DNA from: Gammaproteobacteria bacterium
Lineage (GTDB): Bacteria > Pseudomonadota > Gammaproteobacteria > Enterobacterales > Kangiellaceae
Assembly: GCA_013373375.1 (NCBI GenBank)
Contig: JABXHY010000022.1
Location: forward strand, 1 to 58,267
Direction of reading: 5' to 3'
DNA: 58,267 bases
The stretch's first letter is position 1; each line of letters begins with the position of its first letter. Shown here one piece after another: positions 45,052 through 58,267 of the stretch. Below the pieces are notes generated by a model. That model searched no databases, was not told the DNA's origin, and worked only from the letters and a program-made list of their open reading frames with translations. The translations under genes and the position numbers were made by a program.

Positions 45052-45642
45052 TTAAAATAAATAACTCAATGACACACTAAATTGTGAGTTTGCTGTTGAA
45101 TCGTCTTCCTGCAACAAGCTTGAATCAAACAAGTGAGCACGATAATCGACTCGAAGCACAGTGGTTCGTGTAAAGTCTACTCTGTATCCCAGTCCAACAG
45201 TTGTGGTAAAGCTTTGTTCCCCACCAAACTGAGTGTCCCCAACTCCCGCAACTAAATAGAGCGATGAAAGTAGAGCTTGAGTGCCAGAAAAAAATTGCTC
45301 CGCTTGAAATATGTTATAACCAATTAAAAAATCAAGGTGCTTAAAATTTCGGTCGTCTCCAGAAAACAAAGCACCTTGGCTTTGTTCAAATGACGATAAG
45401 CCGACATCCGCTTGAAAATAATTAGCCTGAAGAAAAACATTTTCAGTTGAATGAAAAGTCGATTGAATTCCCCAAAGCATTTCACTGGAAAAATCCTGCA
45501 CCGTAATGAAGCCTGTCACTATCCCGACTTCAAACTGTTCTGAATCTAACTCGCTTAAGTCAGCTTCTTCGTTGGCAGACAGTTGTTGCGATGAAATGCT
45601 AAGAAGAAGAATTAGAAGAATGCGTTGAAGCCAAGTTGCCAT
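45052..45642 (-). CDS. Outer-membrane beta-barrel protein of the gliding/Nfs-type cluster
   Basis: A 196-residue precursor with a signal peptide (to SANEE). The mature part alternates strands (EVGIVTGFITVQDFSSEMLWGIQSTFHST, later TTTVGLGYRVDFT, FSVSLSYLF) and ends in Phe, as in small 8-strand barrels. It resembles the OMP group seen next to the Myxococcus gliding genes (TIGR04565-like), but this is from pattern only. Its start lies inside the preceding gene by 31 bases, so the two are coupled. Last of three barrel genes on this strand. Confidence 0.65.
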   Translation of the reverse strand: MATWLQRILLILLLSISSQQLSANEEADLSELDSEQFEVGIVTGFITVQDFSSEMLWGIQSTFHSTENVFLQANYFQADVGLSSFEQSQGALFSGDDRNFKHLDFLIGYNIFQAEQFFSGTQALLSSLYLVAGVGDTQFGGEQSFTTTVGLGYRVDFTRTTVLRVDYRAHLFDSSLLQEDDSTANSQFSVSLSYLF

Positions 45643-46364
45643 TGGTCAGATCTCTCACTGTCTAAATCAGTATCAATTTTAAAATCGCGAAACTCAGCTT
45701 TAACCAAAAAATTTCGCCCCACATAAATACTCAATCCGACGCCTAAACTAAGGTAGCTGGATTCATCAATGTCGAGTGGAATCAGTTCAGGCTGAGAACT
45801 TATTTTTAAACTGCCGGAACCAACTGTTATCGATGGAGAGAACTTCCATTCTGAATAAGGTTCAAACCTGACTACTCCACCATAATAACGACCACGTACT
45901 TCAGCGTCGTAAAACTTACTACGTTCAAACTCTAAAGAAAGCCATGAATTCCAGCGGTAGCCAGCGTTGAAGGTAATTACTTCTGCTGAGTCTAGTTCTC
46001 CTTTACTGAATCTTCCGGTATTAAAGCCTGCGAAAAAACTTCCTTCTAAATAGTCGCCGTAACTCACACTCGGCAAATCAACAGGTTCACCTGTCGGTAA
46101 AAGCGTTCGAGCAATTTGTGCGGCCTTTGCCCATCCGGTTTGACCGTACTCAGAGGTTATTTCATACCAATCAGGTCGTCGTTTTAAAATAGTAACTCTT
46201 TCACCTTGTTCAACGGTGTAAAACACTGGGTAGCCTTCGCCGGGCCCTGTGTGTAACTCAACAAAAGGGTCGATGACTTCTATTGAGACTGAGGGCTCTT
46301 CCGCAACAGATTGCCATGAACTAAGTAAAAGTATTGGTAACAGGAGATATAGATAAGATTTCAT
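45612..46364 (-). CDS. SH3b domain fused to an outer-membrane beta-barrel
   Basis: A 250-residue precursor with a signal peptide (to SVAEEP). Residues about 27-88 form a bacterial SH3 domain (VELHTGPGEGYPVFYTVEQGERVTI then PDWYEITSEYGQTGWA), a fold that often binds peptidoglycan. A barrel of about 150 residues follows, with aromatic-rich strands (YLSLGVGLSIYVGRNFLVKAEFRDF) and a C-terminal FNAFF. This would tether an outer-membrane barrel to the cell wall. It sits 17 bases downstream of the third barrel gene and overlaps the next by 31 bases. Confidence 0.68.
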   Translation of the reverse strand: MKSYLYLLLPILLLSSWQSVAEEPSVSIEVIDPFVELHTGPGEGYPVFYTVEQGERVTILKRRPDWYEITSEYGQTGWAKAAQIARTLLPTGEPVDLPSVSYGDYLEGSFFAGFNTGRFSKGELDSAEVITFNAGYRWNSWLSLEFERSKFYDAEVRGRYYGGVVRFEPYSEWKFSPSITVGSGSLKISSQPELIPLDIDESSYLSLGVGLSIYVGRNFLVKAEFRDFKIDTDLDSERSDQWQLGFNAFF

Positions 46365-46381
46365 TAAAATTACTCCCGCCG

Positions 46382-47053
46382 TTAAAACATTACATTGAGA
46401 CCAACGCTAAACTCAAGGTTCTGAGTTCGCTTTTGGTCGCCAATAAAATCGCGTTCAAAGGAATGGTTGAAAAAGTTGATATCTAGATTAGTCGATTCTG
46501 AAAGCAACGTTTTATACTGAAGCCCCAAGGTGTAGCCCGTATCATCAGACCCAGCGAACTCCATATTACCGAAACCAATCAGTGCAACAATTCGAGAGTT
46601 GAATTTAGTGTCGCTGCTGAAAAAAGAGCGACCATTAAATAAGCGATAACCAAACAAAGCACTTGTCACTTTAAATTCTCGATCAGACGGAGAGAGGAAG
46701 TCTAGACCTATGACTCGCTCAAAGGTTGCTCGATCGATATCGGCGCTTCGAGAAATAATCTGAATCGAGTAGTCTGAGGTGATGTGGTAACTGGCTTGAA
46801 AGCCATCAATACTATTGGTCGCGAAATCGTCCACCGACAAGCGCCCATATGTAAAGCCAAGTTCGAATGTATTCGGTTGTATTTTTGGCGCGCTTACCGG
46901 GCTTGGCCCTTGCTTGGGCTCAATAATGGTAACGGACTGTACCTCTTCTTCCTGAGAGAATGCTGGAGCCGTAAAGGCTGTGGCGGCAAGCAAACAGCTT
47001 GGTATGAACGCTGCTCGCATTGTCGCTCGAAAAAGCTTTAAACCTTGATGCAT
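46382..47053 (-). CDS. Outer-membrane beta-barrel protein, first gene of the barrel triplet
   Basis: A 223-residue precursor with a signal peptide (cleavage near APAFSQEE) and a short proline-rich linker (PKQGPSPVSAPKIQP), then barrel strands such as FELGFTYGRLSVDDF, GFQASYHITSDYSIQII, and NLEFSVGLNVMF at the end. Its spacing and pattern match the 196-residue barrel (a shared 'FE(L/V)G-x-(F/V)TxG/YG...' start), so the two are paralogues. The gene starts the minus-strand unit that faces away from the TPR-ExbBD operon. Confidence 0.65.
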   Translation of the reverse strand: MHQGLKLFRATMRAAFIPSCLLAATAFTAPAFSQEEEVQSVTIIEPKQGPSPVSAPKIQPNTFELGFTYGRLSVDDFATNSIDGFQASYHITSDYSIQIISRSADIDRATFERVIGLDFLSPSDREFKVTSALFGYRLFNGRSFFSSDTKFNSRIVALIGFGNMEFAGSDDTGYTLGLQYKTLLSESTNLDINFFNHSFERDFIGDQKRTQNLEFSVGLNVMF

Positions 47054-47517
47054 GAAGCCATACTCTCCCTGACTTTAGTTATCGTTCTTAGTTGTAAATT
47101 TATGCAGTGTTCCTTGAATCAAAATTGCGAGCTTAAAGAAGCTGGTTTAAATGACATTGCAATTTTTGAAAACCTAGAACTAACATTAATCCTCTACTAC
47201 ACTTTTAATCTCGGCGCGCGTTGTATATGCAGAGTCTAGAGACTGGTTGATTCGTATGCTAGCGAATTCGTTGATTAATGTCGCTATAAGTAAAGTTCAA
47301 GTTGTGACTGATGTCTAATATTAAGCAGTTAACTCATTCAAAATTGTGATGAAAGTTAAGATTTTTAATATGTATACTTTATAACCAACCAGAGCTCTCT
47401 TATCATCGCCTTGAAGCCAGTTATTTTATTTATTTTTTTATACTCACTTTACCGTGGTAGCTTAATTGACTTAAGCAAGTTGTTCACGATACCAAGGAGC
47501 CGTTCGGCAGATTTGTT
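47054..47517. other. Divergent promoter region between barrel genes and the TPR-ExbBD operon
   Basis: A 464-base AT-rich gap. TATACT elements at 47373-47378 and 47439-47444 could be -10 boxes for the plus-strand operon, but neither has a well-spaced -35. AAGGAG at 47494-47499 lies 18 bases before the first ATG, rather far for a binding site. One open frame at 47045-47239 was judged spurious. No repeat or known operator seen. Confidence 0.45.
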
Positions 47518-48078
47518 ATGTTTATGAATACTTCTGTATGTAAGTGTTTACTTACTTTAGGGATTTTTATGCTCAGCGCTTCAGTTAAAGCGGCGGAGCC
47601 AAGTAAAGCTGAAAAGCAAGCGCAAAATACTCTGAAATCGATATCGTCTGAGCTGCAGTCGCTCAAACAAGACGTCGTTTCATTGAATAATGACTTGCGA
47701 CTAATGGAAGAGAAAATCCTGTTCCCTTCTAGCACTAAGTATTCAGTCTTTCTATCACTGCGCACAGGCAAATTCTTAAAGCTCGAAAGCGTTAAATTGA
47801 AACTCGATGGCAAATTTGTATCGACACATCTCTACTCTAACAAACAGCGAGAAGCGCTTGCTCGAGGCGGAATTCAAAAGCTTCATGTAACTAATCTGAA
47901 TGAAGGCAAGCACTCCATCACCGCATTTTTTACTGGACTGGATATCAACGGACGACCAGTAAAATTGGCTGAAACGGTAGATTTTGAAAAGGGACCTGCT
48001 GGAGAGTACCTCGAGATTGCGGTAGTGGATAATCCTGCAACTCAAGAACCTATGTTTAAAATGAAGCGGTGGCAGTAA
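47518..48078 (+). CDS. Exported coiled-coil and beta-sandwich protein, first gene of the trans-envelope operon
   Basis: A 186-residue precursor with a signal peptide (SVKAAEP), a helical coiled-coil (about residues 30-65, QNTLKSISSELQSLKQDV) and a strand-rich domain (KYSVFLSLRTGKFLKLESVKLKLDG). Close relatives in other gammaproteobacteria and myxobacteria begin the same kind of gene cluster and are often labelled AraC-like in databases. That label does not fit: no helix-turn-helix is visible and the protein is exported. Its stop overlaps the next start (TAATG). Probably a periplasmic structural part. Confidence 0.6.
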   Translation: MFMNTSVCKCLLTLGIFMLSASVKAAEPSKAEKQAQNTLKSISSELQSLKQDVVSLNNDLRLMEEKILFPSSTKYSVFLSLRTGKFLKLESVKLKLDGKFVSTHLYSNKQREALARGGIQKLHVTNLNEGKHSITAFFTGLDINGRPVKLAETVDFEKGPAGEYLEIAVVDNPATQEPMFKMKRWQ

Positions 48079-49820
48079 TGGCGAGAGTGGAAACTCTGAA
48101 ACGTCAGTTTTTCAAATGTTTAGGATTACTCGCTGGATGCACTAGTTTTGCGTTGTGGGCAAGTCAACCTCAAGTAGTGGAGAAAGCTGATAAAACAGAA
48201 CTCGAGTGGGGCAATGTTTTATTTGAGTATTATCAAAAAGATTATTTTGAAGCTCTAATCGAATACGAATATGCCAAAACCATTAACAATGACACTGCAA
48301 AAAGTGATTATGGGCAAATGCTACAAGGTGGGATGTTGCTGTCTTACGGCCAGGCAAAACAATCGCAAGAGATTTTTGATCGTGTGCTTGCAAGATCAGC
48401 TGACCCTTTGGTTCGAAATCGAGCATGGTATTATTTAGCGAATCTTTATTATCACAAATCTGAACCTGAGAAAGCGCATCAATCACTCGCAAAAATTTCA
48501 GGTCCTGTACCAAGTGATTTGTTTCCTGAGTTTTATCACCTCACGTCGTTGATTAATAGCGACGTTGAAAACTTAGCTCAAGCAGAAAATATATTATCGC
48601 AAGTACCCGAAGACAGTAAGCATTATCCCTATGTACTGTTTAATGTCGCGATAGGTCAATTGCGGAGCAATGAATTAAAAAAATCGCTAATCAATTTAAC
48701 CAAAGTAAATCAATACGCTGCACGCTCAGAAGAACATGCTTCGCTAAGCGATAGAGCAACACACGGTTTAGCACAATTGGCATTAAAGTCTGGCAACCTT
48801 CCTACAGCTTGGGCCAACCTTCAAAAGATTAGAACCAATGGACTTTATTCAAACAGAGGGTTGTTAACTTATGCTTGGACTGCGATAAAAATAAAACAGT
48901 TTAATGAAGCTATTCCTGCTCTAGAAATTCTTCAGTCTCGTGATATTGCAATACCCGAAGTTCAAGAAGCAAAAGTCTTATTGGCGCATTTATACGAGCA
49001 ACAAGGCGCGCCGAGAAAAGCTTTAAAAAGTAACTTAATTTCGATAGATGAGTTTGCAAAAGGTATCAATCGAGTAGCGGAAGCGCGTGATATCATTGCC
49101 AAGCAAAATGTTCCTGAGGAATTTGTTCGGAACTTAGATGTAATTATAGACGACTCAGATTGGTTTGGTGCTCAGCCTTCAATTGATTATCAAAAGTTAA
49201 CGCCATTTTTAATTGATTTAATGTCCAGTCGAATTCTGAATGAAACATTAAAAGAACTCTCTGATCTTTATGCGATTAAAAAGAATCTGGAGAATTGGGA
49301 ATTTCAGAGTAATGAGCATTTATTGATCATGAATAATGCTGATAAGAAAAGCATTTCCAAAGAAGAACGTAAAGCGATACAGAGAAGTAAGGCTATTCAA
49401 CAACAATTAAGCGATAAAAAACAAGAGTTGAAATTGTTAATGCTCTCGTTAAAGCCTGAAGAGCAAAAAAGATTTCAATCAACTATTGATAGCATTGATA
49501 AAGAAATTGCAATTTTGCAAAGCCGCACTGACGGAATGTCGAGATTGTCGCAGCCTTACAAGCAGCCTGCATCAGTGAAAAAGGAAATGAAAGACAAGCA
49601 CAATCAGGTTAAGCAAAAATTAAAACAAACCAGTCGTTTAATTGCAAAGTTAGAGCCTGTGGTTAGAAGTTTAGTAAATGAAGAGCTCGATAAACACGAA
49701 GAGCGAATGCGCTATTACTGGGCACAGTCACGATTAGCTAAAGCCCGATTGTACGATACAACTTTAATGGAATTAGATAACGTAACGTCAAACAAGGAAT
49801 CAGGCGAGGGTGTTAAGTAA
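48078..49820 (+). CDS. Exported TPR and coiled-coil protein of the trans-envelope operon
   Basis: A 580-residue protein. A hydrophobic segment near the N-terminus (FFKCLGLLAGCTSFALWAS) is a signal peptide. Residues 50-330 are helical TPR-like repeats (LFEYYQKDYFEALIEYEYAK, NRAWYYLANLYYHKSEPEKAHQSL). From about residue 395 the sequence is a long charged coiled coil (KKSISKEERKAIQRSKAIQQ, LKPEEQKRFQSTIDSIDKEI). GTG at 48069 and ATG at 48078 both fit; ATG is chosen because it forms the usual TAATG coupling. Likely a periplasmic scaffold of the machine. Confidence 0.72.
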   Translation: MARVETLKRQFFKCLGLLAGCTSFALWASQPQVVEKADKTELEWGNVLFEYYQKDYFEALIEYEYAKTINNDTAKSDYGQMLQGGMLLSYGQAKQSQEIFDRVLARSADPLVRNRAWYYLANLYYHKSEPEKAHQSLAKISGPVPSDLFPEFYHLTSLINSDVENLAQAENILSQVPEDSKHYPYVLFNVAIGQLRSNELKKSLINLTKVNQYAARSEEHASLSDRATHGLAQLALKSGNLPTAWANLQKIRTNGLYSNRGLLTYAWTAIKIKQFNEAIPALEILQSRDIAIPEVQEAKVLLAHLYEQQGAPRKALKSNLISIDEFAKGINRVAEARDIIAKQNVPEEFVRNLDVIIDDSDWFGAQPSIDYQKLTPFLIDLMSSRILNETLKELSDLYAIKKNLENWEFQSNEHLLIMNNADKKSISKEERKAIQRSKAIQQQLSDKKQELKLLMLSLKPEEQKRFQSTIDSIDKEIAILQSRTDGMSRLSQPYKQPASVKKEMKDKHNQVKQKLKQTSRLIAKLEPVVRSLVNEELDKHEERMRYYWAQSRLAKARLYDTTLMELDNVTSNKESGEGVK

Positions 49821-52675
49821 TGAACCGAATTGTATTTCCAATCTCATTAGCACTGCTTTTAGCCGGCTGCGGTGGTGGTCAACGAACACTCGGAGATTTA
49901 GAGTATAAGGAAACCAAAGAAAAGCCGGTGGAGCTCGCTCAACTTTCTCATGAAGAAGTTAGAAAAGAGTATCAGGAGTTACTTTCATTATTTAAAGATG
50001 ATGAGCTCAAAGAACAAATTGAGCGACGGATAGCTGATGTATATATGATCGAGAGCGGCAATGCTCAGGTCGAAGCAAAGCCGAAGAAACAAAAAAGTTA
50101 TTATCAAGAAGCGATTAAGAATTACCTTCATATTTTAGAAAAATATCCCTATGCGCCGGAAAACGCAGATGTAATGTATCAGTTATCTAAAGCTTACGAC
50201 ATGGAAGGCAAAACAGACTTGTCATTAAATATGTTGGTCAAGCTAACGAAATATCACCCAAATTATAAATACATTGCGGAAGCTCATTTTAGAAAAGGCG
50301 ATATCCTGTTTTCAAAACAAAAATATCGAGAGGCTGAACGTGATTATACTCGAGTGCTTCAGCTAAATGCTCCAGACTTACATTTATACGCCAACTATAT
50401 GTTGGGTTGGTCGCATTACAAACAGTTTGATTACAATCCAAGTTTAAATGCGTTTGGTGTGGTACTTAATCGACTGTTAGCGAAACAGCAGCAGGCTGAA
50501 GGACTTTCTAACACAGAAAAACCTTTGATTAATGACACGCTTCATGCAATGAGTTTAGCGTTTTCTAAGTACGGTGGTGCGCAAAAAATTGAATCAATAG
50601 AGCCCCTCAAAGGACAGCCTCATATTTGGATGGTGTATGAATCACTTGGTGATTACTATCTTGATAAAGAGCGTTATGAAGACTCTGCAGAAGCCTATCG
50701 CTTATACGTCAATCAATACAACTTCACTGAGCAAGCACCAAAGTTACACACAAAACTAATTGATACTTATACAACTGGTGACTTTCCTCTTCTCGCGTTA
50801 AAAGAGAAAGAGTCTTATGTTGAATACTATGGACTGGGGTCGGTGTATGAGAAAACTGTAGGTGTCATTTCAACCGACATTAAATCAACGATTAAAGTTT
50901 ATCTCGACCAACTTGCTAAACACTATCATGCATTAGGTCAAAAGAACGATAAGCTATACGCCCAGCTCTCAAAACAAGAGAACGGTTCTGGCAACTCTGA
51001 CTTATTGAAAAAAATGTCCGGTAAAGAAGCCGAAGCAAAAAATGCTTATCGAAAAGCAGCGTTTTTTTATAGTGAGTTCATACGAACCTTCCCTTCAGAC
51101 AATCGTGTTGCAGAAGTGACTTATCTTCAGTCGGAAGCTTTATATGCGGCGACTGATTTTGTTAAAGCCATCGAAGGTTATGAAAAAGTTGCCTATCAAT
51201 TTAATAACAAACACAGTGCATCTTTTGAGTCTAAAGCAGGTTACGCTGCAATAACAAGTTATAGAAGGTTGATTGAGCAGCCTTCAAACAACGAGCAAAG
51301 TAAGAATAAATGGCAAGCCCAAGCTGTCGAAAGCATGCTGCGTTTTGCCGGTAAGTTCAAACAAGACAAACGTTCACCTGCTGTATTAACCAATGCCGCC
51401 GAATATTTGTTTGGGTTACAAGAATATCAAAGAGCAATCGAAGTTACTCAGGCGATTATCGGACAAGGCAAAAATATTGATCCAACGTTATTAAAAACTG
51501 CTTACGGCATTGTTGCGCATTCTTATTTTCAATTGAAAAACTATCAGTTGGCCGAAGACAATTATCTAGCGCAGCGTAAGTTAGCAAAAGTAGGAACTCA
51601 GGAATATAACCAGATTTCTGAGCGAGTTGCGGTATCGATTTATAAGAAAACTGAAGGGTTATTAGCGCAAAAGCAAGATGAAAAAGCTGTTGAGCAGTTA
51701 CTTCGTGTTAAGCAGCTGGCGCCAAACTCTTCAGTCAGAGTAACAGCTCAATACGATGCAGCTAATTTGCTTACCAGCATGGAACAATGGAAACCCGCAA
51801 TAGAAGAGTTTTCTGAGTTGTGGCGTCTTTATCCTAGTCATAAATTAGCGATCGAGTTTCCAAGAAAACTGGCTTTTCTGTTTGAAAAGTCTGAGCAATG
51901 GGCTAAAGCGGCGAAGCAATATGAGTATCTCAGCGATAAAGATAAAGATGCCGATATTAGACGCAGCTCTTTATTTCAATCGGCGCTAATGGAAGAGAAA
52001 AATAAACAGTTCGACGATGCTATCGTGAAGTTTCGAGAATATGCGCGGCAATACGAGCAACCTTTTGAAATTCGTATGGAAGCCCGTTATCACCTTGCTG
52101 ATTTATACGGAAAAACCAATCAAATCAATAAACAGTTATTTTGGCTAAGACGCATTATCGACGGACATGCTGAAGCTGGTAGTCAACAAAATGAGCGTAG
52201 CTTGTGGCTTGCTGCATGGGCAAACTCGGTCTACGGCGATTATTTTGCTGGTGAATTTTACAAACGTCGACTAACTTCTCCATTAGGTAAAAGTTTACCT
52301 AGAAAGAACAAATTGCTTAAAGATGCGATATCTCGTTATGAAAAAGCAGCAAACTATGGGGTTTTTGAATTTGTGACGATGGCCTCTGTAAAAATGGCCA
52401 ATATGTACGATCATTTAGCTACCTCATTGCGAAAAGCGGCTCCGCCCAAAGGATTGACTGCTGCGCAACGAGAAGAGTATCGAGTCATTATCGAAGAACA
52501 AGCGGCACCACTTCAAGGCGTCGCGCGCGAATTGCACGAAGGCAATGTATTGCGAGCTTGGGAAGGCGAATACAACAAGTGGATTGAAGAAAGTTTTGCT
52601 GCAATGGCGGTCATGTATCCTGAGCGGTTTGGTAAGTCTGAATTAGTAGTGAGTTATGGCGATGAAATTTGGTAA
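49820..52675 (+). CDS. Large TPR lipoprotein of the trans-envelope operon
   Basis: A 951-residue protein with lipobox LLAG-C17 followed by Gly, so it should be an outer-membrane lipoprotein. The rest is tetratricopeptide repeats: for example AIKNYLHILEKYPYAPENAD, AEAHFRKGDILFSKQKYREA, AAEYLFGLQEYQRAIEVTQA, and more to about residue 880. It starts at the stop of the previous gene (TAATG) and overlaps the next gene by 20 bases. It resembles GltE/AglT-like TPR lipoproteins in architecture, a match by architecture and not by search. Confidence 0.75.
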   Translation: MNRIVFPISLALLLAGCGGGQRTLGDLEYKETKEKPVELAQLSHEEVRKEYQELLSLFKDDELKEQIERRIADVYMIESGNAQVEAKPKKQKSYYQEAIKNYLHILEKYPYAPENADVMYQLSKAYDMEGKTDLSLNMLVKLTKYHPNYKYIAEAHFRKGDILFSKQKYREAERDYTRVLQLNAPDLHLYANYMLGWSHYKQFDYNPSLNAFGVVLNRLLAKQQQAEGLSNTEKPLINDTLHAMSLAFSKYGGAQKIESIEPLKGQPHIWMVYESLGDYYLDKERYEDSAEAYRLYVNQYNFTEQAPKLHTKLIDTYTTGDFPLLALKEKESYVEYYGLGSVYEKTVGVISTDIKSTIKVYLDQLAKHYHALGQKNDKLYAQLSKQENGSGNSDLLKKMSGKEAEAKNAYRKAAFFYSEFIRTFPSDNRVAEVTYLQSEALYAATDFVKAIEGYEKVAYQFNNKHSASFESKAGYAAITSYRRLIEQPSNNEQSKNKWQAQAVESMLRFAGKFKQDKRSPAVLTNAAEYLFGLQEYQRAIEVTQAIIGQGKNIDPTLLKTAYGIVAHSYFQLKNYQLAEDNYLAQRKLAKVGTQEYNQISERVAVSIYKKTEGLLAQKQDEKAVEQLLRVKQLAPNSSVRVTAQYDAANLLTSMEQWKPAIEEFSELWRLYPSHKLAIEFPRKLAFLFEKSEQWAKAAKQYEYLSDKDKDADIRRSSLFQSALMEEKNKQFDDAIVKFREYARQYEQPFEIRMEARYHLADLYGKTNQINKQLFWLRRIIDGHAEAGSQQNERSLWLAAWANSVYGDYFAGEFYKRRLTSPLGKSLPRKNKLLKDAISRYEKAANYGVFEFVTMASVKMANMYDHLATSLRKAAPPKGLTAAQREEYRVIIEEQAAPLQGVARELHEGNVLRAWEGEYNKWIEESFAAMAVMYPERFGKSELVVSYGDEIW

Positions 52676-53513
52676 GCACGTTACAGCAGTTGGAATAGCG
52701 TTGGTTACATTGGCGCTCATTACGGGCTGTGGGAGTAACAAAAAAAGTGGTTTAACGCTCGCTGTCTCGGGTGACGAGAAGCGATCACAAGTTCAAACTG
52801 ATAAATATTTGCCTAAAAAGCAGGTTAATACAGAAACTGGCGATGAGCTGGTTTATCAGCCGCAGCCTAACCCTTATTTAAAACAGGAAGGTCAACTATC
52901 ACCTGAAACTGTTCAATGGTTCATTCAAGCAAAGCGTAATCTTCAAAATGGGCAAGATAAGATTGCAGAACAGTTTTTAGATAAGATCACTAAGAAAAAT
53001 GATTCTTTATCAGGTCCTTGGGTTATGAAGGGCGATATTGCCGTTAACCAGAAGAAGCTGGAAACAGCGGTTGAACATTATGTAAAAGCTATCGAAGTTA
53101 ACTCCAGAAACGTGAATGCCTATTTAAAACTAGCAAAGGCACAACGTGAACTTGGACGCTTTGTTCATGCACAAAATACCTATGCTAAAACATTATCTGT
53201 GTGGAAAGATTTTCCTGAAGCTCATTTTAATTTAGGTGTGCTGTATGACCTTTACTTGAATCAACCAGAAAAAGCACAGCTTCATTTAGAAGCGTACCAA
53301 TTTTTGGCGGCTAATAAGCCTGCAAAATTAAAAGCATGGCTTGCCGATTTGTCAGAGAGAACCGGACAGAACAATTATATCGAAGTGGATTTTAACGCCA
53401 AACGTGAAGCGGTTTTGGCAAAGCTTGAAGCCGAGAAAGGTGAAAGCGAACCTAACGCGAAAGACAAGCAAAGTGCTCTCAACAAAACCAATGAGGAGCA
53501 ATCAACCCGATGA
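52656..53513 (+). CDS. TPR lipoprotein of the trans-envelope operon
   Basis: A 285-residue protein with lipobox ALITG-C25 followed by Gly and Ser. A linker rich in K, Q and P precedes the repeats. Three or four TPR-like motifs (GPWVMKGDIAVNQKKLETAVEHYVKAI, NAYLKLAKAQRELGRF, EAHFNLGVLYDLYLNQPEKAQLHL; only partly shown here) span residues about 105-230. The C-terminus is charged and disordered. Two ATGs at 52656 and 52662 are possible. The stop overlaps the next ATG (ATGA). Confidence 0.75.
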   Translation: MAMKFGKHVTAVGIALVTLALITGCGSNKKSGLTLAVSGDEKRSQVQTDKYLPKKQVNTETGDELVYQPQPNPYLKQEGQLSPETVQWFIQAKRNLQNGQDKIAEQFLDKITKKNDSLSGPWVMKGDIAVNQKKLETAVEHYVKAIEVNSRNVNAYLKLAKAQRELGRFVHAQNTYAKTLSVWKDFPEAHFNLGVLYDLYLNQPEKAQLHLEAYQFLAANKPAKLKAWLADLSERTGQNNYIEVDFNAKREAVLAKLEAEKGESEPNAKDKQSALNKTNEEQSTR

Positions 53514-53821
53514 ATTTAAGTATCATTAAAACGGCCTTACTGGTGATTTCTGCAGTGGTCTTAATAAGCTCCCCTGTGATGGCAGCAGAAAAAAAAGAAG
53601 GTCCCAGAGCTGACATTAAGCTTGAATCAAATTTTATTGGCGACAAAGAACAGCCATCTGTCACTTACTTTGTTCCTTGGCAGGGTATTGGTACTCCCGA
53701 CAAGTTGCAGTGGGAAATGACAGATAAAATAGATAAAACGCTAGATCGTGTTGATAGAGATGTCTTTCGGCGCAGTCTAAGAATTTACAATGAAATGAAT
53801 TTAGAAACACCTAACCGTTAA
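53510..53821 (+). CDS. Small exported protein with conserved VPW motif, trans-envelope operon
   Basis: A 103-residue precursor with a signal peptide (cleavage after PVMAAE). Its core is ESNFIGDKEQPSVTYFVPWQ, then a short charged tail. I recall the GD-x-E-x-P-x-V-x-Y-x-VPW pattern in unnamed small proteins of similar clusters. No fold or function can be assigned. It overlaps the TPR lipoprotein gene by four bases (ATGA) and lies 18 bases before the ExbB-like gene, so it is an integral part of the operon. Confidence 0.6.
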   Translation: MNLSIIKTALLVISAVVLISSPVMAAEKKEGPRADIKLESNFIGDKEQPSVTYFVPWQGIGTPDKLQWEMTDKIDKTLDRVDRDVFRRSLRIYNEMNLETPNR

Positions 53822-53839
53822 CGATTATTGAGGTTCACC

Positions 53840-54565
53840 ATGACGGATACATACAGTTTAATAGTAAAGTTTTTTCAAGACGGTGGCTTGTTCATCGTCC
53901 CAATATCAATCGTATTAGTGGTTGGTGCAGTCATTATAATCGAGCGCTGGTTATTCTTGTCACGAGAGCGCGTTCGTAATGCGAAAGCATTCGATGAGTT
54001 TTTACCACTATTGCGTACCACAGACATGGAAAAAATGCGCTTATTTACTCGTGAAAATACAGCTCCGGTTGTTCGAGTGATCGGTTGTGGCCTTGATATG
54101 ATGAAAGTGACCAAGCATCGTGCGGATATCGAACACTCAATGAGTGAAGGTATGCTCGAAGCAATGCCTAAAATGGAAAACCGAACCGGTTATTTATCTG
54201 TATTGGCCAATATTGCAACATTGCTAGGATTATTAGGTACTATTGTCGGTCTTATCGGCGCTTTTACCGCGGTTGCATCGGCAGATCCTGCAGAAAAGTC
54301 GACCTTGCTTTCACAATCTATTTCGGTAGCGATGAACACAACCGCTTTTGGTTTGATTGTCGCTATCCCGTTATTAGGTTTTCACGCTTTATTGCAAAAT
54401 AAAACGGCAGCAATAGTGAAAAGCGTTGAAATGGCGGCTGTTAAATTCCTTAACATTATGACTTACCATCGTTTGATTCACGCTGGCGCTGCAATTCCTG
54501 CAGAAGCAGAGCAAGCAGAAGCTTCTTCTAAAACTGAAGTTTCAGGCGCAACTCAAGCTGCGTAA
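53840..54565 (+). CDS. MotA/TolQ/ExbB-family proton channel protein
   Basis: A 241-residue inner-membrane protein with three helices: LFIVPISIVLVVGAVIIIERW, then after a cytoplasmic loop LANIATLLGLLGTIVGLIGAF and NTTAFGLIVAIPLLGFHALL. The Thr residues in the second and third helices that line the proton path in ExbB/TolQ are present. The start is the ATG at 53840, with GAGG at 53830-53833; an in-frame TTG at 53828 is rejected. It is followed by two ExbD proteins, as in AglR-AglQ-AglS. Confidence 0.92.
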   Translation: MTDTYSLIVKFFQDGGLFIVPISIVLVVGAVIIIERWLFLSRERVRNAKAFDEFLPLLRTTDMEKMRLFTRENTAPVVRVIGCGLDMMKVTKHRADIEHSMSEGMLEAMPKMENRTGYLSVLANIATLLGLLGTIVGLIGAFTAVASADPAEKSTLLSQSISVAMNTTAFGLIVAIPLLGFHALLQNKTAAIVKSVEMAAVKFLNIMTYHRLIHAGAAIPAEAEQAEASSKTEVSGATQAA

Positions 54566-54578
54566 GTAGGTATTCGTT

Positions 54579-55082
54579 ATGGCACTAAAATTTCAAATGC
54601 AACAGGAAGAGCCCGCTGATCTGGACGTAACCTCGTTCATGAACCTCATGATCGTGCTGGTACCTGTGCTATTGATGAGTATGACCTTTACTCAAATATC
54701 TGTGCATGAAATCAAGTTGCCGGATTTGAATCAAGCGGTTCAAAGCAGCAATGAAAAGCCATCACAGCTAGAAGTTGTTATTACGCCGAAAAAAATAGAC
54801 GTTTTTTACCCTGCAAATCGTTTAATACAAACGGTCGATCGAGTAAAAACGGATGACGGTGATAGTTACGACTTTGAAAAGCTCTCGCTAGTTATGAGAG
54901 AGGTCAAAAAGCAGCTCAACGAAAAGAAAGATATATTGATTTTTTCGGATAAAAAAGTCGATTACCAAACTTTGGTCTCAACCATGGATGCCGTTAAATC
55001 CTATAAAGCAGTAGTCGCAGCTAACTTAGTGGAAGTAGAACTATTTCCAGAAGTTTCGTTAGCCGACATGAGTGTGAGATAA
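54579..55082 (+). CDS. ExbD/TolR-family protein with Asn in place of the proton-carrying Asp
   Basis: A 167-residue protein with one N-terminal membrane helix (about 15-36) and a periplasmic domain. The helix starts LDVTSFMNLMIVLVPVLLMS. Aligned with NVTPFIDIMLVLL of E. coli ExbD, the essential Asp is N22 here. D16 lies one turn earlier. The periplasmic domain is ordinary, with KQLNEKKDILIFSDKKVDYQ. It partners the second ExbD directly downstream and the ExbB upstream. It is 12 bases after the ExbB gene and 1 base before the next. Confidence 0.85.
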   Translation: MALKFQMQQEEPADLDVTSFMNLMIVLVPVLLMSMTFTQISVHEIKLPDLNQAVQSSNEKPSQLEVVITPKKIDVFYPANRLIQTVDRVKTDDGDSYDFEKLSLVMREVKKQLNEKKDILIFSDKKVDYQTLVSTMDAVKSYKAVVAANLVEVELFPEVSLADMSVR

Positions 55083-55083
55083 G

Positions 55084-55647
55084 ATGGAAAGCGCAAAGAT
55101 AAACCGATCCAATCTAAATTTTGGAAAGGCCAGTTCCCCTAAATTTTCAACCAAGCTGAACTTGGTTGCTTTGATGGATATTTTTACTATCCTGGTGTTT
55201 TTCCTATTGTTAAATTCAGGTGATGCTGAGCAATTGGAAAATGCTAAGTTTGTAAAGCTTCCAGATTCGAGCACAAAGTCGGCGCCGCATGTTGAAGCCA
55301 TGATCACTATTGGTGATGAAAAAATTTGGTTTAACAAAGAAGCCGTTTTGACCCTGGAAGAGCTAACTAAGTCCAAGCAAGATGTTATCCAACCTTTGAA
55401 AGAAGTTCTAGTTGCTTTCAAAGACGGGAAACCAGAGCTGACTCCTTTTGAAAGAGAAAACGGCTTGTCAGTCACTATTTTAGGCGACAAAGGTGTTTCT
55501 TTTGATGTGTTGCAGTACATTATGAATACATGCACTGAAGCAGACTTTCGAAATGTATCTTTGGCAGTTAACAGGGTTGCTCCACAATCCTTTTTAATTT
55601 CAAACGAAGCGCCAGCTTCTTCAGTGCAAGCTAATACAGGAGGTTAA
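55084..55647 (+). CDS. ExbD/TolR-family protein with intact membrane Asp
   Basis: A 187-residue protein with a single helix near residues 25-45. D32 in LNLVALMDIFTILVFFLLLN matches the proton-carrying Asp of ExbD/TolR. The periplasmic domain is about 140 residues and ends in a flexible tail (PASSVQANTGG). Adjacent to an ExbD lacking the Asp, so the two probably form a mixed dimer within an ExbB ring. Starts one base after the stop of the first ExbD gene. Confidence 0.9.
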   Translation: MESAKINRSNLNFGKASSPKFSTKLNLVALMDIFTILVFFLLLNSGDAEQLENAKFVKLPDSSTKSAPHVEAMITIGDEKIWFNKEAVLTLEELTKSKQDVIQPLKEVLVAFKDGKPELTPFERENGLSVTILGDKGVSFDVLQYIMNTCTEADFRNVSLAVNRVAPQSFLISNEAPASSVQANTGG

Positions 55648-55648
55648 T

Positions 55649-56608
55649 GTGAGTACTATTACGCAACCTCTAGCAATTGATTTAGCGTTACCTTGGCAAG
55701 TTGATGAAAAACAGGAAGCTGTTTTCAAGAAGTGGCTTAAACGCCTTGGGATATTACTGCTACTGTTGATAGTGATTGTTCCTTGGTTACCTGTTTTTGA
55801 GCTAAGTTATGAAAAGCCTGAAAAAGAAGTCGTCAAGACGCAGGTTATCCTTAAAAAGAAAGTGATGCCTGAGCCGGAGGTGGTTCAGCAAAAACCGAAG
55901 CCAAAACCACAGCCTAAGCCTCAACCTATAGAGAAACCGAAGGCAGCGACGGCTCCCACGAAAAGTGCGAAAAAGCCAGACACGGCGCCTAACACTACAA
56001 CAACTCAAGAGTCAGTGCGTCACTCGGCTGGCCTTGATTCGGTGACAAGTGAATTATCATCCTTAAAAGGTATGGTAAATGTTGCAGGAATCAAAAATAA
56101 GAAGACGGTAAAACACGATAAAGGCATAGTGACACAAGCCAAAAATAAAGTGTTCGGCGAAAACATGACCGACAGAACCAGCACTGGTATTGCTGTGCAA
56201 GACAATGTAATGCGTGGTGAAATTACTCAATTATCAGATCACGAAACAGCGGCAGTTGAAGGTTTAGTTACTGGCGGAACTACGAGTGGTACCAGACGTT
56301 CGGGAGCTTTCAAAGCCGGACAACGCGATATGGAAAGTATTCGGCGTATTATTGAGTCTCATAAAGGCTCGATTTATGAATATTATAATCGCGCTCTTGA
56401 TGATAATCCGGAACTCAACGGGCGATTCGTCTTCAGTTTTATTATTTTGCCAGACGGGAAAATATCTAAATTACAGTTGGTCAGCTCGGAGCTCGGACTA
56501 AAAAGTTTAGAAGCTTCAATATTGAGCCGAATCCAAAAAATTGAGTTTGGCGTCGCAGATGCCTCTTCGACAAAGGTTGAGTATAAATTCGTATTCTTCC
56601 CTAGTTAG
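55649..56608 (+). CDS. TonB-like protein with AgmX/PglI C-terminal domain
   Basis: A 319-residue protein. A short cytoplasmic start (about 32 residues) precedes one membrane helix (33-50, LGILLLLLIVIVPWLPVF). Then comes a Pro-Lys-rich periplasmic stalk (PKPKPQPKPQP), a glycine-poor linker, and from about residue 230 an AgmX/PglI-type domain (RRIIESHKGSIYEYYNRALD, FSFIILPDGKISKLQLVSS). The usual TonB membrane histidine is absent. The start is GTG at 55649 with AGGAGG (55638-55643). It carries no cytoplasmic FHA, GYF or zinc-ribbon domain, unlike Myxococcus GltG and GltJ. Confidence 0.85.
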   Translation: MSTITQPLAIDLALPWQVDEKQEAVFKKWLKRLGILLLLLIVIVPWLPVFELSYEKPEKEVVKTQVILKKKVMPEPEVVQQKPKPKPQPKPQPIEKPKAATAPTKSAKKPDTAPNTTTTQESVRHSAGLDSVTSELSSLKGMVNVAGIKNKKTVKHDKGIVTQAKNKVFGENMTDRTSTGIAVQDNVMRGEITQLSDHETAAVEGLVTGGTTSGTRRSGAFKAGQRDMESIRRIIESHKGSIYEYYNRALDDNPELNGRFVFSFIILPDGKISKLQLVSSELGLKSLEASILSRIQKIEFGVADASSTKVEYKFVFFPS

Positions 56609-56630
56609 CTTATTTTAGTGGTTTGAAAGA

Positions 56631-56660
56631 AAAGGCGACTCGATTGAGTCGCCTTTTTTG
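56631..56660 (+). terminator. Intrinsic terminator of the trans-envelope operon
   Basis: AAGGCGACTC (56632-56641) pairs perfectly with GAGTCGCCTT (56646-56655) around GATT and is followed by TTTT. It ends the eight-gene operon cleanly. Confidence 0.92.
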
Positions 56661-56942
56661 TTTCTATTAGAACGCTAAATATATCGGCTATAGAATGCTA
56701 GTAATCTCATCTCGAACCCATATAACAGAGCCGTTTGAGTGATGTTTTTTCCAAATTTTCACTTCCAAGAATTAGTTCCCATATTATTTAGAAGCAAATC
56801 ACATTTTCAGGAAATTAAAACGAAAGTGTGAAAATTAACAAGCCCACTGTGAAGCGATTCCGTCTTTCTCACCTTTTAAGTGGCAGGATCCCTTTTAATC
56901 AAAAGTCATAGAACTACTATGTCGTTGAAAGGATGTCACATT
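56661..56942. other. Intergenic stretch before the C-terminal lipoprotein gene
   Basis: About 280 AT-rich bases with no gene or repeat recognised. It presumably contains the promoter of the lipoprotein gene; AAAGGA lies about ten bases before its ATG. Confidence 0.4.
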
Positions 56943-58267
56943 ATGAATATTCGTTTAGGTAGAACCTTTTTTATGCTCACCGTGAGCGCATTGTTGTTTG
57001 CCTGTTCGGAAAATACACCGCAAGAAGCTAAAGCGGACGAGCAGGCTTCTTCGAACAACTCTAGTGGTAATAGCGAGTCTCCGATCGCATTGATCAGCCG
57101 TCCAATGGATAGGCACTTCGATCGCTTACAAGACCAGTTTCAAAATAATTTAATTGATCAGTCAAAAACGCCACTTGATCTTTGGTCTCCTTATGAAGTC
57201 AGTCGAGGCGCGCAACTGAGCTTGCGCTCAGGGCTTGATGTTAATGCATCAGAAGACGAATTGTTGTCGGCTTATTTCGGCAGCAGCGACTACGACGTAA
57301 AAGACTTAAACCTGTCACCTGATGGCCGCACGCTACTTTTCGCCGCGCACGGTCCAGTCGGACATCCAACCGATTACAGCTGGAACATCTACACCCTGAA
57401 CTACGATACTCAATTGATTAAGCGTGTTATCAGCGACGACAATGTGGCGAATGCGGGTCAGGACACCAGTCCGGTTTTGACCATGGCGGGCAATATTATT
57501 TTCTCTAGTGACCGCGATGCTGGAAACCCGAACAACCCACGCCCGAATGAAGAATTTTTAGGTGATCCACGCTGCGAAAAAGTAGACCCGATAGAAAATC
57601 CATCACTGTTGCATTCGATGAGCCAAAACGGCGACTCGATTATCCAGTTGACCTACGGTCGTACCAATCACGATATCAAGCCGACGCTGTTGACCGATGG
57701 TCGAGTGGCGTTTATCCGTTGGGAGCGCAGCACACAGGTTGTTGAGCAATGTCTTTCGTACTTTGGTCTTGGCAAACAAACCAACAGCGGTGAGCTATTG
57801 GGTGCTAAAGCATTTAGCATTGCACAGCCAGAAGAATGGGAAGAGCCCGAGTTTTGTGCGTATGCGAAATTGACACAGCAAGGCGCGGTGACGGTCACCA
57901 ACCATTATAAATTATTGACCATCTCAGCGGATGGCGCGCAGATGGAACAGTTGTACAACACGGTTACTATGGAGCCTTCGGAAGAATCGTTCCTGGCGGT
58001 AGACCGAATCGTGCAAGCGGAAAATGGCAACCTGTACGCAGTATTGAAACATCAATACAACGAAGTATTGGGTGGAGCCTTGGTAGAGCTTCAACCGCAG
58101 CAGGGTCCTGCAGGTGGTTCGGTTTTTTCAGAATTATCCCCGGTATTATTAAGTAATAACGATGTCAATCTTTACCCAGGTCAAACCTCACCGGGTGGTT
58201 GGTATAGTGCAGCGAGTCCTTATCGAGACAGTACCGGTCGTACCTTGGTCGGCTGGTCGCAATGTAC
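56943..58267 (+). CDS. Lipoprotein with PD40/beta-propeller-like repeats, incomplete at the right edge
   Basis: The frame is open from the ATG at 56943 to the end of the window (441 codons seen). The signal peptide ends in lipobox LLFA-C21 followed by Ser, predicting outer-membrane attachment. After a disordered start, the sequence contains blade-like units: NLSPDGRTLLFAAHGP, SPVLTMAGNIIFSSDRDAGN, KPTLLTDGRVAFIRWE, of the PD40/TolB type. Cysteines in DPRCEKVD, VEQCLSY and EFCAYAKL might form disulfides. The HzsA-related group is an alternative family. Base composition looks more GC-rich (about 50% in lines sampled, against about 42% in the operon before). Not part of the preceding operon. Confidence 0.7.
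   Translation, partial: MNIRLGRTFFMLTVSALLFACSENTPQEAKADEQASSNNSSGNSESPIALISRPMDRHFDRLQDQFQNNLIDQSKTPLDLWSPYEVSRGAQLSLRSGLDVNASEDELLSAYFGSSDYDVKDLNLSPDGRTLLFAAHGPVGHPTDYSWNIYTLNYDTQLIKRVISDDNVANAGQDTSPVLTMAGNIIFSSDRDAGNPNNPRPNEEFLGDPRCEKVDPIENPSLLHSMSQNGDSIIQLTYGRTNHDIKPTLLTDGRVAFIRWERSTQVVEQCLSYFGLGKQTNSGELLGAKAFSIAQPEEWEEPEFCAYAKLTQQGAVTVTNHYKLLTISADGAQMEQLYNTVTMEPSEESFLAVDRIVQAENGNLYAVLKHQYNEVLGGALVELQPQQGPAGGSVFSELSPVLLSNNDVNLYPGQTSPGGWYSAASPYRDSTGRTLVGWSQC

Follow-up and report, generated by a model that had tools for sequence, protein, structure and literature searches.

The right end of the stretch studied here, a 58,267-nucleotide (nt) contig of Gammaproteobacteria bacterium (Kangiellaceae; assembly GCA_013373375.1, contig JABXHY010000022.1), carries a cluster of 13 genes (45052-58265) that very probably belongs to the Agl-Glt core-complex kind, Group B in the relevant passages of PMC3169522. 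The entire contig, called the window below, comes from a draft genome that is 95.8% complete. An ExbB gene, two ExbD genes and a GltG-like gene stand together in it, the combination by which the core complex is recognised. The best fit to the data is a machine that is driven by the proton motive force, spans the envelope and moves, extends or assembles a surface protein, a reading that we consider evenly poised between right and wrong.

The motor would assemble from ExbB and an unequal pair of ExbD proteins (ExbD1 and ExbD2), and the GltG-like protein would carry its movement across the periplasm. Three tetratricopeptide repeat (TPR) proteins (TPR1, TPR2 and TPR3), a protein with a coiled-coil-like start (CC) and a small exported protein (SML) would relay the movement to an outer-membrane platform of an SH3-barrel protein and two small barrels. 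The presumed cargo is a large propeller-PKD-fibro-slime lipoprotein whose gene follows that of the GltG-like protein; it would face outwards, and the machine would move, extend or assemble it at the surface, with attachment to a solid or polymeric substrate as the likeliest purpose. What the sequences themselves show is gene content, synteny and domain identity, the asymmetry of the ExbD pair at one residue, the status of the window copy as a derived paralogue and the giant surface-type proteins beside GltG in two separate lineages; the assembly of the motor, the path of force, the outward face of the lipoprotein and the adhesive purpose are inferred.

Related loci (L) and genomes (G) were collected in two ways. 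The class survey sampled 369 genomes evenly across the class; its marker gene, SML, was found in 85/369 genomes with an alignment query and in 62/369 with a single-sequence query. A scan of named genomes started from eight CC proteins, CC being the survey anchor. Of at least 538 relatives it retained the best 80, and its counts therefore describe one subfamily; most record titles name Gammaproteobacteria assemblies or, unspecifically, Proteobacteria, and a few are odd (e.g., Candidatus Planktophila). The survey loci also served to train the profile models for 18 families, with which 63 loci and the 80 scan loci were read, genes being picked model-first; in the control, the window up to 45 kb, there was one stray match (thioredoxin, 1e-5). 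The TPR2 tree, midpoint-rooted, drew on 101 loci with one TPR2 of fitting length, reduced to 72 by dropping even-numbered scan loci.

Surface-type proteins next to the GltG-like gene

The machine is read as working on a surface protein mainly because two lineages without redox genes each carry a giant surface-type protein adjoining GltG. The first is that of the window, where the cluster consists of a barrel, an SH3-barrel, a second barrel, the core and a propeller lipoprotein, with no redox gene. Clusters of this type occur in 7/24 other genomes of the family and in 0/16 from the rest of the order (SH3-barrel match below 1e-80). In the TPR2 tree they form a clade of seven sequences (local support 1.0) whose long branch is nested among redox-linked clusters. 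These relationships mark the window copy as a derived paralogue, with barrels and propeller retained and the redox genes absent.

The propeller lipoprotein is encoded by the tenth rightward gene (56880-58265, + strand), which is cut by the contig end after 462 amino acids (aa). Its lipobox was recognised by eye, its PD40 match (0.0038) lies under the cut-off, and the product matches its own profile model, whose training set included window-type copies. An earlier note on this DNA had ended the cluster at 56608; the genes from 45052 to 56608 stand, and the boundary moves, since the truncated gene has a counterpart in the same place in 6/6 relatives (L063, L064, L065, L067, L068 and L069; L066 ends before it). 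In the six relatives the gene after GltG is a frame of 1,627-1,704 aa with no CxxCH motif, three of the frames beginning at the region edge. The two proteins scanned with Pfam (L204 and L207) have PKD repeats and match PA14 at the C-terminus, and the two scanned with NCBIfam match Fibro_Slime with 114.5 bits (L204) and 111 bits (L203; cut-off 45). The propeller part of three relatives aligns with the cytochrome of L062, another cluster of the window genome, over some 200-400 residues, without the heme motif. PKD repeats, which come next in the relatives, perhaps broke the assembly inside the propeller gene.

In the second lineage a giant DUF11-type protein is encoded directly after GltG (L088, L092, L104, L107 and L122). 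These five sequences form one clade of the TPR2 tree with local support 1.0, and L217, outside the tree, is a sixth locus of the type. DUF11 exceeded its cut-off in 6/6 scanned proteins (L088, L122, L104, L217, and L211 and L231, the extended readings of the L092 and L107 genes). The frames reach 3,545 aa (L232, the whole L088 gene), 4,376 aa (L211, whole) and at least 4,763 aa (L231). None of the nine redox/barrel genes counted in the next section lies in the 7.2-18.5 kb upstream of CC in the six clusters, of which the regions L226 and L227 end with their contigs.

An adhesive purpose would have a parallel in Fibrobacter succinogenes, which is listed among the bacteria with the core complex (PMC3169522). 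On cellulose, its TPR, ExbB, ExbD, ExbD and TonB-type proteins (FSU_2397, 2398, 2400-2403) rise according to the relevant parts of PMC6851124 and PMC4619616, as does a fibro-slime protein.

Redox genes in the super-locus

The full arrangement, referred to here as the super-locus, begins with a frame of about 535 aa, a LamG/heme protein, a divergent one-heme protein, a propeller c-cytochrome with HZS_alpha, an SH3-barrel and a barrel. It continues with thioredoxin, DUF4266, DUF3570, ApbE, CC, TPR1, TPR2, TPR3, SML, ExbB, ExbD1, ExbD2 and GltG; single loci drop or reorder some of these genes. The copies in the window genome match DUF3570 (5e-35), HZS_alpha (3e-16), ApbE (1.5e-82), Laminin_G_3 (2e-20) and DUF4266 (1.4e-23). 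They lie outside the window: L061 is a second core cluster, bounded by ApbE and thioredoxin, L062 is a separate redox and barrel cluster including thioredoxin, DUF4266 and DUF3570, and L210 is a stand-alone ApbE-DUF3570-DUF4266-thioredoxin set with no core genes in view. That four-gene module is the one of PMC8238504 (2021), whose main text contains neither ExbB, gliding nor tetratricopeptide; unlike the super-locus of relatives and L210, the window (45052-58267) has none of the four genes.

A machine that assembles, moves or services a surface redox complex (propeller cytochrome, LamG heme protein, thioredoxin, DUF4266, DUF3570 and ApbE), with the window copy as a repurposed offshoot, is the strongest rival explanation, though a rather unlikely one. 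The models called CC in 71 scan loci, 44 of them with at least 8 kb upstream. At least one of the nine redox/barrel genes was present in 44/44 of these, at least three in 43/44 and at least five in 28/44, counted over the whole locus and not strictly upstream. The propeller was found in 39 of the 44, the SH3-barrel in 34, thioredoxin in 33, LamG in 31, the one-heme protein in 24, the barrel in 22, DUF3570 in 18, ApbE in 16 and DUF4266 in 15. Among the scan loci with 8.5 kb downstream, 34/45 have the full seven-gene core and 4/45 lack a motor gene. The class survey, with a median of 4 kb upstream of CC in view, gave at least one of the nine genes in 28/40 loci and at least three in 13/40.

Genome-wide counts point the same way. 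HZS_alpha occurs in 57/369 genomes (50/85 core-bearing vs 7/284 core-less) and DUF4266 in 90/369 (66/85 vs 24/284), in a Fisher test that counts related genomes as independent; 31/66 HZS_alpha places lie within 20 kb of a core marker. Against the redox complex as the cargo stand the window-type clusters, with no heme, thioredoxin or flavin gene in view, the six DUF11-type clusters, with none of the nine genes, and the 35/85 core-bearing genomes without HZS_alpha. The strict published flavinylation motif is present in just 20/56 DUF3570 proteins (6/16 where ApbE is in view and 4/25 in the first set), and flavinylation as a fixed feature is unsupported.

Two proteins of the super-locus have no Pfam or NCBIfam match. 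A 539-aa protein with a Tat-like start, seen by eye (L062, 17965-19584), represents an unnamed conserved family, and frames of similar length adjoin the LamG/heme protein in many loci. The other, of about 414 aa (L062, 14168-15412), has one CxxCH in 16/16 survey copies.

Sets without a motor

Some clusters stop after SML and have neither GltG nor a motor. Seven genomes pair such a set with a motor-bearing one: G081 (L086 with L213), G064 (L095 with L214), G197 (L093 with L215), G301 (L109 with L092 and L216), G310 (L222 with L098), G137 (L218 with L103 and L217) and G346 (L219 with L107). It is proposed that the motor-less sets would share the motor of the other set in the same cell. The search for a motor elsewhere in the genome covered the motor-less loci other than L162, L164 and L181 of the scan and L127 and L223. 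In 11 motor-less loci, none of the 13 frames lying close to an end scored above 0.6 bits with the GltG, ExbB or ExbD models, and a concealed GltG or motor is unsupported; four of the 13 looked glycosyltransferase-like by eye.

The proposal resembles the Myxococcus Nfs system, a cargo set that has no motor of its own and is served by one encoded elsewhere (PMC3858216, in its passages on the motor). Nfs differs in having its own NfsG, whereas the motor-less sets are without GltG too and no sporulation is known. Such sets also differ from the published core as far as the text passages of PMC3169522 describe it, its Figure S1 standing outside the comparison.

Gene content of the window cluster

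The open reading frame (ORF) listing of the window confirmed 12 ORFs in 45052-56608. Domain searches agreed with the inventory of the earlier note: three barrels, a coiled-coil protein, three TPR proteins, a small exported protein, ExbB, two ExbD and a TonB-like protein. The rightward run 47518-56608 comprises nine genes whose neighbours overlap or sit 1-18 nt apart. Chance is excluded as the source of the arrangement because identical gene order recurs across window-type genomes.

The AglR-like, ExbB/TolQ-type proton channel subunit (53828-54565, +; start TTG 53828 or ATG 53840) matches MotA_ExbB at 1e-24. ExbD1 (54579-55082, +; ExbD 5.8e-15) has Asn where the membrane helix usually bears the proton-binding Asp, and ExbD2 (55084-55647, +; ExbD 1.6e-12) keeps the Asp. 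The pair is asymmetric at this residue: across 90 surveyed pairs ExbD2 has Asp in 90/90, and ExbD1 has Asn in 70/90 and Asp in 20/90. ExbD2 alone is thus predicted to carry protons in most members; in Myxococcus xanthus a conserved site on AglQ is reported as essential in the part of PMC9120999 that deals with it. The Asp-type ExbD1 loci (e.g., L132, L133, L135, L139, L141, L146, L154, L155 and L158) include many that show no TPR3. Searches of PDB sequences with ExbD1 and ExbB gave ExbD, TolQ and ExbB chains as all of their matches.

The putative force transducer (55649-56608, +) has a membrane helix, a Pro/Lys-rich stalk and an AgmX/PglI C-terminal domain. It scores 68.3 bits with NF033768 (cut-off 40) and misses the GltG cut-off of NF033760 (44.2 vs 650 bits); 30/30 sampled GltG-like proteins match both models at E 0.001 or better. 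A protein of 1,000-1,276 aa with cyclic-nucleotide-binding and rhodanese domains (Pfam) follows GltG on the same strand in L083 (2450-6151) and L091 (3162-6992), with one gene between in L083. In L084, with some frames between, and in L085 there are frames with a similar start. The protein is a possible regulator of the machine.

The relay genes lie upstream of the motor on the same strand. CC (47518-48078) is exported, with a coiled-coil-like start, seen by eye, and a conserved C-terminal region. TPR1 (48069-49820, start probably ATG 48078; TPR_19 7.3e-9) is an exported protein, and TPR2 (49820-52675; TPR_2 8e-10) is a 951-aa lipoprotein with the lipobox LLAGC; both are candidate GltC/GltD counterparts. 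TPR3 (52656-53513; TPR_11 6.4e-13), a lipoprotein with LITGC, is GltE-like (NF033758, 1.6e-5, 24.1 bits, cut-off 225); 18/20 TPR3 proteins match the GltE model, yet 20/20 also match other TPR models. The claim of two lipoproteins among the TPR proteins holds for the two plain lipoboxes, the third case, TPR1, being ambiguous by eye. SML (53510-53821) is a 103-aa exported protein with invariant ExP and PW.

The barrel genes lie on the opposite strand. An OmpA-sized outer-membrane beta-barrel (BAR1; 45052-45642, -) scores 111.3 bits with TIGR04565 OMP_myx_plus (cut-off 60) and has an OMP_b-brl match of 3.5e-5, under the cut-off. The SH3-barrel gene (SH3B; 45612-46364, -), which shares 31 nt with it, combines an SH3 domain, likely peptidoglycan-binding (SH3_3 2.8e-11), with an outer-membrane barrel (OMP_b-brl 3.1e-7). 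A second BAR1-type barrel (46382-47053, -) scores 87.6 bits with TIGR04565 and has no Pfam match. In the divergent region between the barrel and motor runs (47054-47517) promoter-like sites are at chance level (25 found, 25.9 expected). TIGR04565 was matched at E 0.001 by 34/37 sampled barrels (the sample being 24 BAR1 and 13 SH3B), and the SH3 model TIGR04211 by 13. GltA and GltB of M. xanthus are paralogous OmpA-type barrels that bind the TPR protein GltC, according to the part of PMC4488436 concerned with them, and the adjacent barrel pair of the super-locus would be their natural counterpart. The barrels support a surface platform because most match the myxobacteria-named model, in line with the GltA/GltB-GltC interaction.

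Relation to Agl-Glt, gliding, Tol and Ton

The core complex was described in 2011 as a single cluster of gltC, gltD, gltE, gltG, aglR, aglQ, aglS and one additional gene in gammaproteobacteria, Geobacter and others, its function being left open in the passages concerned (PMC3169522). The extra gene is given there as absent from Myxococcales, and the core as duplicated in some gammaproteobacteria (PMC3169522; PMC3858216, 2013). SML or CC would fit as this additional gene. The TPR proteins, ExbB, two ExbD and a GltG-like transducer in one region are common to the published gammaproteobacterial core and the clusters described here; the published list of seven genes plus one differs from the latter, to which synteny adds the barrels, the propeller protein and, elsewhere, the redox set.

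The earlier note had related the cluster to Agl-Glt/Nfs and taken it for a proton-driven machine across the envelope; both points hold up, given the AgmX/PglI domain and the GltG-like matches, and its statement that related core clusters occur in some gammaproteobacteria is borne out by the passages of PMC3169522. The location outside the usual gliding bacteria is likewise real; its novelty fell away, gammaproteobacterial cores having been published in 2011 and 2013 (PMC3169522, PMC3858216). The machine cannot be called complete. The core set and the barrels are present; the profile searches gave a GltG-like transducer and a GltE-like TPR3, and no Glt equivalog cut-off was reached. Counterparts of GltF, GltI, GltJ and GltK were not identified in the cluster, where the transducer alone matched the GltJ model, far under the cut-off, and the presence of GltF, GltI and GltK models in the profile library is unconfirmed.

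Gliding motility proper is improbable. Motor composition and class and the AgmX-type transducer are shared with Myxococcus Agl-Glt, whose TPR proteins and paired OmpA-type barrels have candidate counterparts here, and an adhesin-like protein adjoins the cluster in relatives. The window cluster differs in being a single locus with no known motility and, as the earlier note had it, with no MglA or FHA/GYF part: the PF00025 search of the draft genome for an MglA-like small GTPase gave one weak Arf match (27.5 bits) inside a 901-aa frame, and FHA and GYF are not among the Pfam matches of the cluster proteins. Core genes alone are insufficient for gliding, as stated in PMC3169522.

A TonB-like uptake or Tol-like envelope-stability system has an equally small probability: the ExbB/ExbD/TonB-like composition suits it and the SH3 domain may hold peptidoglycan, but a TonB-dependent receptor, TolB and Pal are not among the cluster Pfam matches, the barrels are OmpA-sized, and with 13 ExbB-family places the window genome has further candidates for the Ton and Tol roles. 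The window motor protein reaches 59.3 of 221 bits with the TolQ equivalog and 36.5 of 135.35 and 31.5 of 206.2 with the ExbB equivalogs; the ExbD proteins reach 28.5 and 26.2 of 127.3 with TolR and 27.2 of 216 with ExbD. The earlier note had asked whether the ExbB/ExbD genes are ordinary Tol/TonB partners and whether the TPR and barrel genes are unrelated units. The scores lie far under the TolQ, TolR, ExbB and ExbD cut-offs, and many loci keep the TPR and barrel genes in synteny with the motor; on both grounds the genes were rejected as ordinary Tol or Ton partners.

Discussion

Several points weigh against a machine that works on a surface protein. To our knowledge, no interaction, localisation or phenotype is known for any gammaproteobacterial member. 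The window contig stops before the position of the relatives' fibro-slime end, which was not found in the window draft genome by a search that was silent in every control genome too. A terminator-like hairpin (56628-56659, +; 14 pairs and a T-run) between the transducer and propeller genes suggests separate transcription, terminator-like sites in total being not above chance (12 found, 12.7 expected). The window SH3B matches TIGR04565 with just 17.1 bits, outside the E 0.001 limit (E 0.0041). Most scan clusters adjoin redox proteins, not adhesins, and in the class survey 12/40 loci show none of the nine genes, five of them DUF11-type and seven others (L096, L097, L105, L111, L114, L115 and L121) with neither a redox nor a giant gene in view. 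Because of these neighbourhoods, and of the 7/40 loci that show neither, the cargo may differ between clusters or the adhesin neighbour may be coincidental. The motor-less loci are not one clade in the TPR2 tree, and in G056, with the motor-less set L094, no second core marker was found in the genome; a shared motor is therefore not shown there. Finally, the parallel with F. succinogenes depends on FSU_2397-2403 being the published core complex, an equation that we infer from the parts of the papers cited above.

For the surface-protein machine, the suggestion in the earlier note of moving or assembling a surface polymer comes close: a surface task agrees with the neighbourhood, which suggests a protein rather than a polysaccharide. 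No function assignment for the core complex after 2011 was found in the open-access literature, nor, judged on titles and abstract openings without supplements, a paper describing the super-locus. The gammaproteobacterial core complex itself was already known; the super-locus partners, two cargo swaps and the motor-less cargo sets are added here. The core complex is thereby tied to named outer-membrane, surface and redox partners, and the open question of its function becomes one of specific tests.

A broader idea, which we put forward tentatively as a possibility, is that the core complex is a general proton motor whose surface cargo can be exchanged. Originally this cargo would have been an outer-membrane redox complex with hemes, thiols and sometimes covalent flavin, swapped for giant adhesins in some lineages, and several cargo sets per cell would share one motor and transducer. 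If this is true, an electron-transfer assembly at the surface is subject to mechanical force from the inner membrane, and gliding and spore-coat assembly in Myxococcus would represent two of several choices of cargo.

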